Assembly (NCBI RefSeq): GCF_018449475.1
Contig: NZ_JAHCQH010000018.1
Location: 62,001 to 126,000 of the forward strand
Length of the DNA stretch: 64,000 nt
Source of the DNA: Ancylobacter radicis
GTDB taxonomy: Bacteria > Pseudomonadota > Alphaproteobacteria > Rhizobiales > Xanthobacteraceae
Reading direction: 5' to 3'
The notes beneath the pieces were generated by a model, which saw only the letters and a program-made list of their open reading frames with translations, ran no database searches and had not been told where the DNA came from. Position numbers and translations under genes: made by a program. This document shows, piece by piece, positions 15,016 through 55,751 of this stretch. The first letter of the stretch is position 1, and each line of letters opens with the position of its first letter.

Positions 15016-16722
15016 ATGCCTGAGCGCGTCGCGCCGCTGCATGCCCCCGTCGCCTTGCTGACGCCTGAAGAGGTGGCTGGTATTGTCGGCGAGCTGAGCG
15101 GCGCCGCCTATCGCTGGACGCCGGGCACGGACCAGCTGGCCTGGTGCGGCACCGCTGCCGATGTGCTGGGCACCGAGCGCCTGCCGCACGTCCATTCCGG
15201 CCGGGATTATCAGGCGCTGGTCGCTCCGGGTTCCGGCACGCCCCGCGTCGAAGCGGCCCGCACCGCCCAGACGCCGGGCCTCAAACCCGGCACCCGCCTG
15301 TTCGAGACCACCTATTGCCTGACGGCGCCGGCCGATGCCGAGCTGAGCCGTCTGTGGCTGGAGGACCGGGGCATCTGCCATCTGGCGGAGGACGGGCGGC
15401 TGGAGAGCGTGGAGGGCATCGTCCGCCGGCTGTCGGTCGGGCGTCCCGTGCGCACCGCGGGCGTGTTCGGCGGGGTGGAGCCGCAATCCGAGCGGCAGCG
15501 CCTGTCACAGATGGTCGATGAGCGCCTCACCGCCGCCTACCGGGACGGCAGCGAGTTCGGCTTCCTGCTGGTCGGCATAGACCAGCTCGGGCGTTTGAAT
15601 GATTCCTACGGCTTCCAGATCGGCGACGAACTGGTCGACATCGTCTGGATGCGGCTTCGCGCCCAACTCCGCGAGGGCGAGGAGATCGCCCGCTTCTCCG
15701 GGGCGAAATTCGGCATTCTGCTGCCCCGTGTGGGGGGCGAATGGCTCGCCTCGGCCCAGCGCATCCTCGCCGGCGTCAACACCACGCCGCCGCGCACCAG
15801 CGCCGGGGGCGTGGCGATCAGCGTCTCGGCCGGCGGGCTGGTGGCGCCGCGCCATGGCCGTTCGGTGGCGGAGGTTTTTTCCCACGCGCAGGACATGCTT
15901 GTCGCCGCCCGCGCCGCCGGGCGCGGCAGCCTTCATATCTATTCGCCGGGGATCGACCGCGCGGCCGAGCGGCGGGCCAATCTGCGCTTCGCTGACGACA
16001 TCATCTCGGCGCTGGGCGAGGGGCGGGTGACGCTTGCCTTCCAGCCGATCGCGCGGACGGGCGGCCGCACCATCGCCTTCCATGAGGCGCTGGTGCGCAT
16101 TCAGGGCCGCAACGGGCGGGTCTATGACGGCTCCAGCATCATCCCGACGGCGGATCGCTTCGGCCTGACGCGGCTGCTGGATCAACGTTCGCTGGAACTG
16201 GCGCTGGCCACATTGCGGGCGGAGCCGGAACTTCATCTCTCGGTGAATGTCGCGCCGGGCTCGATCCATGACAGCGTCTGGCAGCACAGCCTTGAGACGG
16301 CGGCGGATGAGGGGCTGTGCCGGCGGCTCATCATCGAGCTTACCGAATCCGCCTCGATCTCCGACATCGACACGATGCGCGCCCGCGTTGTCTGGCTGCG
16401 CGGGCTGGGCTGCCGGGTGGCGATGGACGATTTCGGCGTCGGCTACACCTCGTTCCGCAGCCTGCGCCGGCTGGGCGTCGATCTGCTGAAGATCGACGGC
16501 AGCTTCATCTGCTCGATGATGCAATCGGAGGACGACCGCCATTTCGTGCAGGCGCTGCTGGAACTCGCCGGCAAGCTCGGCATCGAGACCGTGGCGGAAT
16601 GGGTTCTGGATGAGGAGGCCGCCCGCCTGCTTGGCGACTGGGGCTGCACCTATCTTCAGGGCGAACTGGTCGGGATGGCGACCGAGCGGCCGGCCGCGGG
16701 CGACATCGCCGCGGGTGCCTGA
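15016..16722 (+). CDS. GGDEF/EAL domain protein with degenerate GGDEF site
   Basis: 568 residues, apparently cytosolic. Residues ~1-165 form a PAS-like sensory region. A GGDEF domain follows, but its active-site loop reads FSGAKFG near 230-236 instead of GG(D/E)EF, so cyclase activity is unlikely. The C-terminal EAL domain keeps key residues: Glu357 in HEALVRI, Asn in SVNVAPGS, Glu in IIELTES, Asp471-Asp472 in MDDFGVGYTS, Lys492 in LLKIDGSF and Glu in ETVAEWV. It therefore may act as a c-di-GMP phosphodiesterase, with the GGDEF half possibly a GTP-binding regulator. Confidence 0.88.
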   Translation: MPERVAPLHAPVALLTPEEVAGIVGELSGAAYRWTPGTDQLAWCGTAADVLGTERLPHVHSGRDYQALVAPGSGTPRVEAARTAQTPGLKPGTRLFETTYCLTAPADAELSRLWLEDRGICHLAEDGRLESVEGIVRRLSVGRPVRTAGVFGGVEPQSERQRLSQMVDERLTAAYRDGSEFGFLLVGIDQLGRLNDSYGFQIGDELVDIVWMRLRAQLREGEEIARFSGAKFGILLPRVGGEWLASAQRILAGVNTTPPRTSAGGVAISVSAGGLVAPRHGRSVAEVFSHAQDMLVAARAAGRGSLHIYSPGIDRAAERRANLRFADDIISALGEGRVTLAFQPIARTGGRTIAFHEALVRIQGRNGRVYDGSSIIPTADRFGLTRLLDQRSLELALATLRAEPELHLSVNVAPGSIHDSVWQHSLETAADEGLCRRLIIELTESASISDIDTMRARVVWLRGLGCRVAMDDFGVGYTSFRSLRRLGVDLLKIDGSFICSMMQSEDDRHFVQALLELAGKLGIETVAEWVLDEEAARLLGDWGCTYLQGELVGMATERPAAGDIAAGA

Positions 16723-52125: not shown

Positions 52126-52911
52126 TCAGCCCTGCTGGAGAACCTTAAGCGCGGCTTCATGCGCGCGCGGATCGCCCGCCGCGATCACCCGGCCGCTCGA
52201 CAAGTCCGACGTACCTTCCCAACTGGTGACGATGCCGCCCGCGCCCTCGATGACCGGGACCAGCGGCAGGATGTCGAAGGCCTTCAGATTGGTCTCGATG
52301 ACGAGATCGACATGGCCGGCGGCGAGCATGCAATAGGCATAGCAGTCGCCGCCATAGCGCGGCAGGCGCACGCGCTCCTCCACCGCGCGGTAGCGGGCGC
52401 GGTCGGGCTCGTCCATCAGCAGCGGCGAGGTGGTGAGCAGGATCGCCTCGTCGAGCCCGCCGCAGGGCCGGGCGTGCAGGCGGCGCTCGCCGGCGGGGCC
52501 GCGATAGCGCGAGACCGCGCCGTCGCCATAGAAGCGTTCGCCGATGAAGGGCTGGTGCATCATGCCATAGGCCGGCTGGTCCTCGCGGCACAGGCCGATC
52601 AGCGTGCCCCAGGCCGGCAGGCCGGTGATGAAGGATTTGGTGCCGTCGATCGGATCGAGCACCCAGACATATTCGGCGTCGAGGCCCTCATCGGCGAATT
52701 CCTCGCCGCGCACGCCATGGCTGGGGAAGTGGCGGCGGATCAGCGTGCGCATCGCCTGTTCGGCGGCGCGGTCGGCGGCGGTGACGGGATCGAACGCGCC
52801 GCCGCTGTTCTTGTCCTCGACACCCAGCGCCGTGCGGAAGAAGGGCAGGATGGCCTGGCCGGAGACCGTTGCCAGCTCGTGCACGAAACCCTCGAAATCC
52901 ACCGCGCTCAT
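52126..52911 (-). CDS. hisN: Histidinol-phosphatase of the inositol monophosphatase family
   Basis: 261 residues from the ATG at 52911. It likely dephosphorylates histidinol phosphate, the step done by HisN in actinobacteria and many alphaproteobacteria. The metal-binding signature is VLDPIDGTKSFITGLPAWG near 82-100, with GEE upstream and GGDCYAYCMLAAGHVDLVIE downstream. The related SuhB-type inositol monophosphatases share these motifs, so the substrate is an inference. It is divergent from the small-RNA cluster starting at 53161. Confidence 0.88.
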   Translation of the reverse strand: MSAVDFEGFVHELATVSGQAILPFFRTALGVEDKNSGGAFDPVTAADRAAEQAMRTLIRRHFPSHGVRGEEFADEGLDAEYVWVLDPIDGTKSFITGLPAWGTLIGLCREDQPAYGMMHQPFIGERFYGDGAVSRYRGPAGERRLHARPCGGLDEAILLTTSPLLMDEPDRARYRAVEERVRLPRYGGDCYAYCMLAAGHVDLVIETNLKAFDILPLVPVIEGAGGIVTSWEGTSDLSSGRVIAAGDPRAHEAALKVLQQG

Positions 52912-53090
52912 GCGCTTGCGCTCCCGCTGCCGGCGCCGGGGCCGTCCGGCGCTGCGCAACGCATATCGAGACGCAGGCGGCTCGGCAATCGCGCGACCTG
53001 TCCCGCGCGCGTGAAACGGTAAGCGGGGAAGAGGGCGGCGGCAAAAGCTGAGATGCGCCCCTCATCCGCCCCGCGCCTGACGCATGGCTG

Positions 53091-53115: not shown

Positions 53116-53160
53116 GCATGCCTAAGCGTTGCACTCAGGCAGTGAAGCTGCCATATTATT

Positions 53161-53263
53161 GCAGCGCGGCAGGGTGATTGGCGTTGCCCTTCCGCCGCCC
53201 TTCTTGGGCGTTTCCTCCCTAGACTTGGGCCGCTCCGGCAACGTGAGCGGCCCCTTTCTTTTT
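53161..53263 (+). ncRNA. Small RNA, tandem copy 1 (CCTCCC core, alpha-r14/suhB-like)
   Basis: About 103 nt. Promoter-like TTGCAC (53129-53134), 17-base spacer, CATATT (53152-53157). The transcript begins GCAGCGCGG, then GTGATTGGCGTTGC, a small hairpin GCCC-TTCTT-GGGC, the invariant core TTTCCTCCCTAGACTTGGG, and an intrinsic terminator GGCCGCTC...GAGCGGCC followed by TTTCTTTTT. The CCTCCC stretch is complementary to GGGAGG ribosome binding sites. Multi-copy tandem arrangement and location beside an inositol-monophosphatase-family gene recall the alpha-r14/suhB and CcsR small RNAs; membership is unverified. Confidence 0.8.
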
Positions 53264-53502
53264 ATAACCATCTGAAATCGCTAGCATTTATCGCCCTCGT
53301 CGGGAGGCGTGCCCTTGGGCATGCTCCAGCGCGGCCGGCGCCCGCCGGGGTGACGGTCCTGCCGGCAACTTCAGCGATGCCTCTGTCCAGACAATGCTCG
53401 CGCAACGCGCGAATTGCGACATTCGCGCTCACGCTCGGGTGAATGAGTTTCGTTTCTTTCGTTTTAGCCTTGCCATTTGTGCGGCGCACCGCTATCAAGA
53501 TC

Positions 53503-53606
53503 GCAGTGCCGGGACGTGATTGGCGTTGCGCTCCGGCCGCCCTTCTTGGGCGTTTCCTCCCTAGACTTGGGCCGCTCCGCTTTTGCGCGAGCGGCCTCTT
53601 TCTTTT
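53503..53606 (+). ncRNA. Small RNA, tandem copy 2 (CCTCCC core)
   Basis: About 104 nt. Promoter-like TTGCCA (53470-53475), 16-base spacer, CTATCA (53492-53497). From GTGATTGGCGTTGC through CCGCCCTTCTTGGGCG and the core to GGCCGCTCCG it is nearly identical to copy 1. The terminator loop differs (CGC-TTTT-GCG extends the stem) while the GGCCGCTC/GAGCGGCC stem is kept, a sign that the hairpin is under selection. It ends in TCTTTCTTTT. Confidence 0.8.
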
Positions 53607-54138
53607 CAGCCCCTGTTTTTCGCCCCGGCGGCGACGATGCGATCGGCCGGCGCGCCGGCCCTTCGGCCGAGCGGCGGGCAAGACGCACGCACCTCACGCT
53701 TTGATGGAAGGGCGCCGGCTTCGGCCAGGCATATCCGTGCCGGTGGCGAGCCTGCGCCCGGCATGAACGGCGGGATGGGGATGGCTGACCGGCGGGCTAG
53801 GCCTAGACTTCGGCTTCTGCCTCAGTCGCGGGAGCGGGTCGCGCCCGGCGCGGCGCTCGTGTCTCACCCGCGCGGGGTTTGCCCGCGCGTGGCTTGCCCC
53901 TGGAATCGCTGCTGCGGGGCGCAGGGGGGCGGCGGCGGGCGGCACAAACAAATAAGGCCCGCTCCAGAGCCTCCCGCCCTGGGCGGTTCAGCGTGGAAAC
54001 GAGCCTTCAATGGGCGAATGAGGTCCGACAGGGCCGAAAACGCGGCATTAATGTCACACGGGACCTGCATGCGTATCTGGTATGCCAGAAAATGGCGGCG
54101 CTTGCCTTGATTATTCCGCAATGCACCTACATCTTCCA
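53607..54138. other. Gap between small RNA copies 2 and 3
   Basis: 532 bases. Frames are open in several directions (for example plus 53583-54110) but give Arg/Ala/Pro/Gly-rich translations typical of non-coding GC-rich DNA. I see no domain, no ribosome binding site and no repeat of the small-RNA core. It may be the remains of a lost gene that separated what were once adjacent small-RNA copies. Confidence 0.4.
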
Positions 54139-54239
54139 ACTCGTACGCAGCGATTGGCGTCGCTCCGTACAGCCCTCCTTGGGCGTTTCCTCCCTAGACT
54201 TGGGCCGCTCCGCTATTGCGTGGGCGGCCTCTTTCTTTT
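54139..54239 (+). ncRNA. Small RNA, tandem copy 3 (CCTCCC core, most diverged)
   Basis: About 101 nt. A weaker promoter-like pair TTGCCT (54102-54107) and CTACAT (54127-54132) precedes it. The 5' part is shorter and diverged (CGATTGGCGTCGCTCC), the first hairpin is GCCC-TCCTT-GGGC, and the core TTTCCTCCCTAGACTTGGG is identical. The terminator stem GGCCGCTC/GGGCGGCC keeps pairing by a G-U pair, with inner CGC-TATT-GCG, and ends CTCTTTCTTTT. Compensatory changes against copies 1 and 2 support a functional RNA. Confidence 0.78.
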
Positions 54240-54510
54240 GGTCCGGGTCGGGCGTTCCGTGCCGGCTGGAGCCGATCTTCGTCACGACCGCTTGGCGTTC
54301 CCGGCACCCGATAGGGTGGCTGGGGTTCGGGGTAGTTTCTCCCTGCCGCTTGGCGCGGTCTCGCCCGATGGGGTGAGGGAGATTGTGCCCGGAACCGAGC
54401 GTGCAGAATTGGTATAGCTCTCATGTTCAAAATGCAAGGCTGTTATGCGGCCTTTTGCATCATGCGATCACATTTTTGTAGTGTTCGGCGTAACATGTTG
54501 ATCTGCTTAT

Positions 54511-55398
54511 CTATTCTGCGGCCGTCCGGCTCGGTGTGAGCTCCACCTGAGCGATTTTTCCGAGGGTGGCGGCCACATCCATCAGGTCGCGACGCACATT
54601 TTCGAACGCATCCGATGCCTGATAAGTAGGCTCATGCATATAGAGCGCGCGGTTGATCTCGATCTGCACCGCGTGCACGCCCGAGGCCGGGTTGCCGTAA
54701 TGCTCGGTGATGAAGCCGCCGGCATAGGGCTTGTTGCGCACCACCGAATAGCCGCGCCGCCGCAGTTCGCCCTCCAGAATATCCGCGATCACCGGCGCGC
54801 AGCTCGTGCCGTAGCGGTCGCCGATCACCATGTCGATGCGGTTGCGCTCGTCGCGCTGGCAGCCGGAGGGCATGGAGTGGCAGTCGACCAGCACCGCCAT
54901 GCCGAAGCCGCGCTGCAACTGCGTCACGATCTGCCGGAGCGTGCGGTGATAGGGCTTATAGAGCGTGTCGATGCGCGCGATCGCGTCATCCACCGGAATG
55001 CGCCGCGCATAGATTTCCTGCGCTTCGCCGACGATCCGGGCGATGGTGCCGAGCCCGCCGGACACCCGCATCGAGCGCGTATTGGCATAGGCCGGCAGTC
55101 GCCCCTCGAACATGCGCGGATCGAGCTCATAGGGCTCGCGGTTCACGTCGAGATAGCAGCGCGGGAAATGCGCGCGCATGAACGCCATGCCGAGGCGGGT
55201 CACATCGGCGAACAGCGCGTCCACCAGCGTGTCCTCGGAGCGGCGCAGCATCGGCAAATCGAGCCGCGACTGCTCGACGAAGGCGCGGGGATAGACCACG
55301 CCGCTATGGGGCGAGTTGAACAGGAAGGGCAGGGCCGGCCGGGCCGGCATGACGACCTCAAAGGCAGGATCGATGGTTTCGGCAATGACAGCCATCAT
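54511..55398 (-). CDS. N-formylglutamate amidohydrolase family protein
   Basis: 295 residues from the first of two adjacent ATG codons (MMAVIAETIDPAFEVV). The family core is clear: LPFLFNSPHSGVVYP near 27-41, RCYLDVNREPYELDP, VLVDCHSMPSGC and YGNPASGVHAVQIEINRALYM. True HutG enzymes release formate from N-formylglutamate in histidine breakdown, but no hut genes are near and members of this branch may act on other substrates. It is convergent with the small-RNA cluster and divergent from cpdR. Confidence 0.9.
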   Translation of the reverse strand: MMAVIAETIDPAFEVVMPARPALPFLFNSPHSGVVYPRAFVEQSRLDLPMLRRSEDTLVDALFADVTRLGMAFMRAHFPRCYLDVNREPYELDPRMFEGRLPAYANTRSMRVSGGLGTIARIVGEAQEIYARRIPVDDAIARIDTLYKPYHRTLRQIVTQLQRGFGMAVLVDCHSMPSGCQRDERNRIDMVIGDRYGTSCAPVIADILEGELRRRGYSVVRNKPYAGGFITEHYGNPASGVHAVQIEINRALYMHEPTYQASDAFENVRRDLMDVAATLGKIAQVELTPSRTAAE

Positions 55399-55751
55399 CT
55401 CAAGGACCAGCTCAACCCCGTCTTCCGTCCGCGCCTGCCCCCTCCCGGCACGCGGCGAGGGAAGCCGTGCCGGCGCGAGCCAGCCTGCACCAATTCCTCT
55501 GTAACATGAGCGTTCCCGGTGCGGAACGAGGAACGCACAGGAAGAACAGGCGCCCGCGCGCCGCGTGCGCACGAGGCTGTGAGCGGCGCCCGCACAGCGT
55601 TTTGCCCGCCACACACCTGTGGAAAGCGCGCCGTATCCCCCGGCGATTCACGATGTGCTAAGAGCCGAGGGAGTACCGATGAGGGCAACAGGCTGCCGGG
55701 CGTGCGGATTCTCGACGTTCCGCGCCATTGCGAGTGAACAGGGTGCAAGGG

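Follow-up and report, generated by a model that had tools for sequence, protein, structure and literature searches.

Small RNAs of the alphaR8 family (RF00519, present Rfam name MmgR) were described as suhB, an RNA transcribed opposite the suhB gene, multi-copy and not bound to particular neighbours, with a short 5' helix and a terminator as the only conserved structures and with five copies in Bradyrhizobium japonicum (Corbino 2005, PMC1273637). According to a 2025 Caulobacter study, alphaR8 RNAs carry a terminator and the 10-mer UUUCCUCCCU, which is single-stranded below a weak hairpin, and in most species the gene adjoins that for N-formylglutamate amidohydrolase, a usual and not a universal neighbour (PMC12559287). 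In Caulobacter crescentus, SisA uses this 10-mer, together with Hfq, to repress numerous targets (PMC12559287), and the paralogues SisA-D reportedly differ in their expression patterns. MmgR of Sinorhizobium meliloti is Hfq-dependent and has a link to PHB and carbon (PMC7143759), and SuhB of Sphingopyxis granuli TFA is an Hfq-dependent repressor that represses thnR in carbon catabolite repression (PMC6563040). The available parts of PMC5082802 and PMC4842269 make no mention of suhB, and those of PMC3927594 none of suhB, RF00519 or SmelC689.

In this study, we found three copies of such a gene in the window, that is, in the whole 64-kb stretch of Ancylobacter radicis DNA that was analysed. The window contains exactly three sites of the 19-nt core TTTCCTCCCTAGACTTGGG, which lie on the plus strand at positions 53211, 53553 and 54186, and a search allowing up to three mismatches still returns three sites, with 0.01 expected by chance. 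An earlier note made from the sequence alone had described these three copies and the intrinsic terminator that ends each of them (a G+C-rich stem followed by a T tract, 3/3) and had given nearness to an inositol-monophosphatase gene as a trait of related RNAs; all of this was borne out, such a gene being the upstream neighbour. The exactness of the shared core stood as well, the block itself beginning earlier than the note had placed it and including GATTGGCG and the GCCC..GGGC helix. The features are as follows.

52129..52926, minus strand: flanking gene, inositol monophosphatase family (PF00459, E 1.1e-48)
53129..53157, plus strand: copy 1 putative promoter TTGCAC-17-CATATT (by eye)
53166..53195, plus strand: copy 1 5' hairpin, 12-nt arms, loop TTGGCG, one mismatch (pairing counts, predicted fold)
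53197..53209, plus strand: copy 1 GCCC..GGGC helix, the first of the Rfam model (cmscan alignment; invariant in 90 copies)
53211..53229, plus strand: copy 1 anti-Shine-Dalgarno core (RF00519 match at 53190-53268, 66.3 bits)
53227..53264, plus strand: copy 1 intrinsic terminator (sequence, cmscan, predicted fold)
53470..53498, plus strand: copy 2 putative promoter TTGCCA-17-TATCAA (by eye, weak; copy-2 sites vary in the genus)
53508..53537, plus strand: copy 2 5' hairpin, loop TTGGCG (sequence, pairing counts, predicted fold)
53539..53571, plus strand: copy 2 GCCC..GGGC helix and core (RF00519 match at 53532-53611, 60.4 bits)
53569..53607, plus strand: copy 2 intrinsic terminator (sequence, predicted fold)
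54107..54135, plus strand: copy 3 putative promoter TTGATT-17-CATCTT (by eye, uncertain)
54143..54170, plus strand: copy 3 5' hairpin, 11-nt arms, loop TTGGCG (sequence, pairing counts, predicted fold)
54172..54204, plus strand: copy 3 GCCC..GGGC helix and core (RF00519 match at 54165-54245, 60.0 bits)
54202..54239, plus strand: copy 3 intrinsic terminator (sequence, predicted fold)
54511..55614, minus strand: flanking gene, N-formylglutamate amidohydrolase, a usual alphaR8 neighbour (PF05013, E 6.8e-72)

The predicted RNAs of copies 1, 2 and 3 are 99, 102 and 100 nt long, and each folds more stably than all of its 200 shuffled versions (z = -4.24, -4.54 and -4.87). The covariance-model comparison that the earlier note had recommended, run with Infernal cmscan against 4227 Rfam families, reported only RF00519 at the three positions, with 66.3, 60.4 and 60.0 bits against a cut-off of 41 and over all 77 model positions. 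The note's suggestion of a multi-copy suhB-family RNA with an anti-Shine-Dalgarno core thus holds, as plain membership of RF00519 and not as the diverged sister family that it had also considered. The alphaR8 features are likewise present: all three copies have a Rho-independent terminator, the 10-mer occurs exactly between hairpin and terminator, where it is unpaired in the predicted folds, and the neighbouring gene encodes an N-formylglutamate amidohydrolase (PF05013 match at 54514-55614). Together with the Rfam matches, these features make the array a member of a known family, and by sequence the three units are RF00519 alphaR8 RNAs, kin of S. meliloti MmgR, Caulobacter SisA-D and Sphingopyxis SuhB. 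Elsewhere in the genome, a fourth RF00519 match (C20:26156-26237, L004) reached 31.5 bits, below the cut-off, and was not counted as a copy because it lacks the CCTCCC core.

Like the array, SisA-D of C. crescentus belong to this family, occur as paralogues, share the exact 10-mer and act on Shine-Dalgarno sequences, an action that is predicted here, and sisA also has the amidohydrolase gene as its neighbour; unlike the array, SisB-D are dispersed and the regions upstream of sisA-D share no motif (PMC12559287). Furthermore, the 10-mer of SisA lies near nt 34 (PMC12559287), so that a 30-nt 5' hairpin is probably absent from SisA RNA. MmgR shares the family and differs in its length of 77 nt (PMC7143759) and in being the sole alphaR8 sRNA of S. 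meliloti (PMC12559287), and SuhB of S. granuli, which is of the same family by name, differs in its length of 61 nt (PMC6563040).

The array, with exactly three copies, was present in all 30 Ancylobacter genomes searched; the core is conserved among these relatives, its absence from related genomes being what the earlier note had named as evidence against its reading. BjrC2a-c of B. japonicum, also RF00519, are multi-copy like the array. In the 30 genomes, copies 1 and 2 are separated by 324-383 nt and copies 2 and 3 by 342-2354 nt, the latter spacing being 1.7-2.4 kb in four genomes (G004, G012, G017 and G022) and 0.3-1.2 kb in the other 26. Among the best 80 named loci listed for the monophosphatase gene, an exact 11-mer was found three times in 19, twice in 15, once in 43 and not at all, within the available locus DNA, in 3. 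The three-copy loci of this set were from Ancylobacter (15), Bosea (1) and Xanthobacteraceae without a genus (3), the two-copy loci came from Xanthobacter, Aquabacter, Azorhizobium and others, and in all 77 positive loci the copies were opposite in strand to the monophosphatase gene. At wider range, RF00519 matches above the cut-off were found in 194 of 198 genomes of the family and in 71 of 144 genomes drawn from the class. Two genomes of another family of the class have three matches in a row, ~230-290 nt apart (G241:C7:54432-55030 and G351:C4:3801090-3801687); therefore, tandem triplets exist outside the genus too. The main evolutionary study of alphaR8 is reportedly that of Lagares 2016. 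Extra RF00519 copies off the array (L063, L064, L065 and L066) were seen in some genomes of the genus (G014, G021 and G025), L064-L066 with a similar 5' hairpin, and a prophage origin of L063, L064 and L066 found no support, as none of the four adjacent ORFs tested matched PHROG.

The 5' hairpin, a feature absent from the earlier note, precedes the GCCC helix and lies outside the Rfam model. Its ATTGGCG loop is invariant in all 90 copies of the genus, as is the whole GCCC helix. Pairing of the outer stem was counted from the loop, in place of RNAalifold on a MAFFT alignment, which missed this stem because alignment gaps shift the register. Stem positions 4-11 outward from the loop pair in 607 of 720 cases, compared with 228 to 426 when one arm is slid by 1-3 positions, and 79 of the 90 copies retain 9 or more of the 11 inner pairs when counted from the loop, the other 11 falling short of this in that register. 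Each arm fits its own partner best (6.74 of 8 pairs): partners exchanged between copies of one class gave no more than 6.24 in 500 shuffles, and partners exchanged irrespective of class no more than 5.10. Two-sided changes occur in three of the four inner pairs of the genus alignment; given the whole structure, the 14 two-sided change cells compare with 3.6 in shuffles, none of 500 being as high, and the number of two-sided pairs is less striking, 27 of 500 shuffles reaching three. Outside the genus the loop differs and the hairpin stays, with z < -2 in 25 of 33 class-level copies (best-scoring loci) and in 51 of 71 and 32 of 37 family copies, two sets that may overlap in organisms, while four other windows taken from these loci gave 0 to 6.

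An alternative, which we consider somewhat unlikely, is that this hairpin is a DNA element, an operator or a promoter spacer, and that the mature RNA has 60-80 nt and starts near the GCCC helix. Such lengths have been reported for Sphingopyxis SuhB (61 nt, PMC6563040) and S. meliloti MmgR/SmelC689 (77-80 nt, PMC7143759; PMC2873474), SisA residues 33-45 cover the 10-mer (PMC12559287) and thus leave too little room for a 30-nt hairpin, and the constancy of ATTGGCG in the genus could be that of a protein site. However, the stem changes on both sides with its pairs kept, a pattern not expected if selection acted only on the DNA sequence, and the hairpin persists outside the genus while its loops differ. 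Furthermore, 13 of 33 class-level and 33 of 71 family copies carry a -10-like YATATT box before the hairpin, often together with TTGNNN at a 17-nt spacer; in each other window tested, no more than 2 copies have the box. In the genus, the best site of at least 13 of the 30 copy-1 regions is CATATT, placed 62 nt ahead of CCTCCC and preceded by TTGNNN across a 17-nt spacer; the automatic promoter scan was clearest for copy 1 and for copy 3 preferred other sites in most genomes. From its position, the YATATT box speaks for a transcription start at the hairpin in these lineages, which would make the hairpin part of the RNA.

The earlier note had seen compensatory or G-U changes in the terminator stems, a fair description that needs sharpening. 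The pair of stems it quoted, GAGCGGCC and GGGCGGCC, differs by a one-sided change from U-A to U-G, so this example is of the G-U kind only, and 8 of the 9 terminator pairs counted are invariant or change on one side only (90 copies of the genus, 76 of them distinct). The top pair (columns 84-99), in addition, shows two-sided change in 19 of the 76 distinct copies, a value reached in none of 500 shuffles. Within a genome, the terminators of copies 2 and 3 are more alike than between genomes (0.881 vs 0.781; 0 of 1000 permutations), and these stretches are identical in 9 of the 30 genomes. For copies 1 and 2 and copies 1 and 3 such likeness is weak (1 and 2 of 1000 permutations), and upstream stretches show none (265, 931 and 93 of 1000 permutations), the upstream regions being copy-specific across species. 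As terminators are shared within genomes and upstream regions are not, the simplest reading of these sequences is that the 3' halves have undergone gene conversion and the promoters have stayed independent. A view of the copies as redundant remnants of duplication, with no separate roles, is rather improbable: the likeness of the copy 2 and 3 terminators, weaker for the other two pairs, points to gene conversion and would agree with it, but an array of exactly three in all 30 genomes and upstream regions that stay copy-specific across species speak against it.

Membership of a different anti-Shine-Dalgarno family (alpha-r14/NfeR1, alpha-r15/AbcR or CcsR) has a negligible chance of being correct. 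Those RNAs do have similar CU-rich motifs, a multi-copy habit and a three-hairpin layout (PMC7143759), but the full-length RF00519 matches of all three copies count against families within the Rfam set, and the exact alphaR8 10-mer and the amidohydrolase neighbour (PMC12559287) count against this reading as a whole. In the predicted folds, the anti-Shine-Dalgarno motif is not unpaired in all three hairpin loops, as it is in alpha-r14/NfeR1: loop 1 is TTGGCG, the CCTCCC core lies outside the loops, and helix 2 has a short CU-rich loop, CTYCT. The alpha-r14 label used in the earlier note was mistaken, RF00519/MmgR being alphaR8 (PMC12559287) and alpha-r14 the NfeR1 family (PMC7143759).

Regarding putative targets, the GGGAGG sites that the earlier note had named exist (7204, 17607 and 58022), and GGGAGG-N3-12-ATG is not enriched in the window (6 found vs 7.8 expected). 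The 8-mer GGGAGGAA occurs 7 times in the window against 2.0 expected, three of the seven being the sRNA copies, and GGGAGGAA-N2-11-ATG occurs 23 times in the genome, with one site counted twice, whereas the reversed pattern occurs 2 times. By Pfam, the 19 downstream ORFs include four solute-binding proteins, together with a PTS protein (IIB and IIC), a thiolase (PhaA), Fae, an aldehyde dehydrogenase and a glutamate dehydrogenase. In a second species of the genus set (G012, 30 of 49 matches read), 9 of 23 such ORFs encode solute-binding proteins and 4 more encode transporters, whereas control ORFs behind other ribosome sites gave 0/14, 1/13 and 0/17 solute-binding proteins. These counts cover ORFs of at least 60 aa; all 23 test matches of the own genome were read, and the control matches read were 30 of 31 there and 30 of 38 plus 30 of 135 in G012. 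Pfam was run on all 42 test ORFs and on 10/14, 10/13 and 0/17 of the control sets, the remainder being judged by eye; the AAGGAGG control set contains ATGs inside longer frames, and three of the 42 test ORFs (L188, L198 and L202) show no sign of being genes. L190 and L292, which look like glycerol-type binding proteins, were left out of the solute-binding count.

Pooled, 13 of 42 GGGAGGAA ORFs against 1 of 44 controls encode solute-binding proteins (Fisher 2.8e-4); the difference is smaller without the last and weakest control (13/42 vs 1/27, p 0.006) or against Pfam-tested controls only (13/42 vs 1/20, p 0.025), and it comes to p = 0.12 for the own genome alone (4/19 vs 0/14) and p = 0.0013 for G012 alone (9/23 vs 1/30). 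Genes whose ribosome site matches the core thus appear rich in solute-binding proteins, a motif statistic that weakens with cleaner controls, and solute-binding proteins may simply use strong ribosome sites. Such enrichment fits the carbon-supply roles of SisA and SuhB. One sugar-binding-protein gene was recovered from 24 genomes (E 1e-150 or better), and its leader carries GGGAGG in every one of them; five of these proteins are only 67-69% identical and may be paralogues, and the full GGGAGGAA is present in only 7 of the 24. For phaA, an example given in the earlier note and rejected here as a conserved target, GGGAGG is found in 6 and GGGAGGAA in 1 of 30 leaders of the genus, and this poor conservation speaks against the example.

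Copies of the RNA were also found on phages. The exact 23-mer TTGGGCGTTTCCTCCCTAGACTT occurs in 83 IMG/VR contigs, from which 80 viral loci, representing 71 distinct elements, were read. An antiterminator profile, seeded from three of these loci with proteins matching PHROG 6386, matches upstream on the same strand in 34 of the 80 loci, and a terminase large-subunit profile, seeded from two loci, matches downstream in 26; in 22 loci, or 19 distinct elements, the RNA lies between the two (e.g. L490:8640-8745, L439 and L448, among the viral loci L411-L490). In 46 of the 80 loci no antiterminator is seen nearby, in some for lack of flank. The same arrangement recurs in two named Bradyrhizobium phages, ppBeUSDA76-1 and ppBdUSDA122-1, in which an antiterminator homologue (E 3.9e-49 and 1.2e-69) is followed by the RNA, an HNH endonuclease and the terminase; in OP596613.1 the RNA lies at 16034-16138. 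In the same record, WAX24340.1 (L494:3964-4641) is annotated as an ABC transporter substrate-binding protein, an annotation that looks doubtful because the protein matches the antiterminator profile with E 3.9e-49. The RF00519 cut-off was passed by 10 of 11 phage loci tested, and the ppBdUSDA122-1 copy, without part of the core, is not above it. The 5' hairpin of the phage copies is weaker than that of the host, 22 of 67 having z < -2 compared with 10 and 0 of 67 in the control windows, and a CATAGG-like box, a pattern made after inspection, is found in 26 of 29 antiterminator-linked copies vs 5 of 38 others. An RF00519 RNA of 62.8 bits is also present in a phage recorded with a Microcystis host (PP395640.1:42325-42361), a host entry that may be doubtful because RF00519 is described as alphaproteobacterial, and 38 plasmid records match the phage element as well.

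In the papers searched we found no earlier report of a phage-borne suhB/alphaR8, which does not prove that none has been published; the available parts of a review of phage sRNAs (PMC12197685) mention none, and the word 'prophage' occurs 0 times in the Caulobacter paper (PMC12559287). It is tempting to speculate, at slightly less than even odds, that alphaproteobacterial temperate phages took over a host alphaR8 sRNA as a terminated late-operon leader and thereby couple the phage stage to host metabolism. In such phages, the antiterminator gene would be followed by an alphaR8-type RNA that has a promoter and a terminator of its own, and this RNA by the terminase. Until the antiterminator acts, an alphaR8 mimic would be produced by the prophage or in early infection and would join the host nutrient-uptake regulon; afterwards, polymerase would read through into the late genes. 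The host array in the window would then be the normal input of that network. In phage lambda, the late-leader (6S) RNA at pR'-tR' is a small terminated RNA between the late antiterminator and the late genes. The phage copies, and these only, resemble it in this position, whereas in sequence they are unrelated to it and are of a host sRNA type.

In summary, the array is a triplet of the known alphaR8 family that is kept in the genus, and its kind as such is already known. Building on the copies, their family membership and conservation, the structure supported by comparison and the motif statistics, we give a probability of roughly 0.7 to the reading that these are three paralogous alphaR8 sRNA genes, each with its own promoter and terminator, which with Hfq block GGGAGG-type sites chiefly of solute-uptake and carbon genes. 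Each gene would be transcribed from the hairpin into an RNA of ~100 nt, consisting of the 5' hairpin, the GCCC..GGGC hairpin, the single-stranded UUUCCUCCCUAGACUU and the terminator. The core would pair with GGGAGG-type Shine-Dalgarno sequences and, presumably with Hfq, block translation, and the repressed genes would be chiefly those for solute-uptake proteins and other carbon-source genes. Three copies would provide dose and, as the pairing core cannot vary and promoters can, separate promoters.

According to the comparative work, the Rfam model appears to be truncated at the 5' end in many lineages, and solute-binding proteins are proposed as a target class. Three paralogues kept throughout the genus, with an invariant core and diverging promoters, offer a clean natural set for testing why sibling sRNAs persist. 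In our judgement, the side results, above all the phage copies, deserve follow-up more than the array itself. The same sRNA, found in phages at a recurring place ahead of the late genes, could tie phage development to the carbon uptake of the host.
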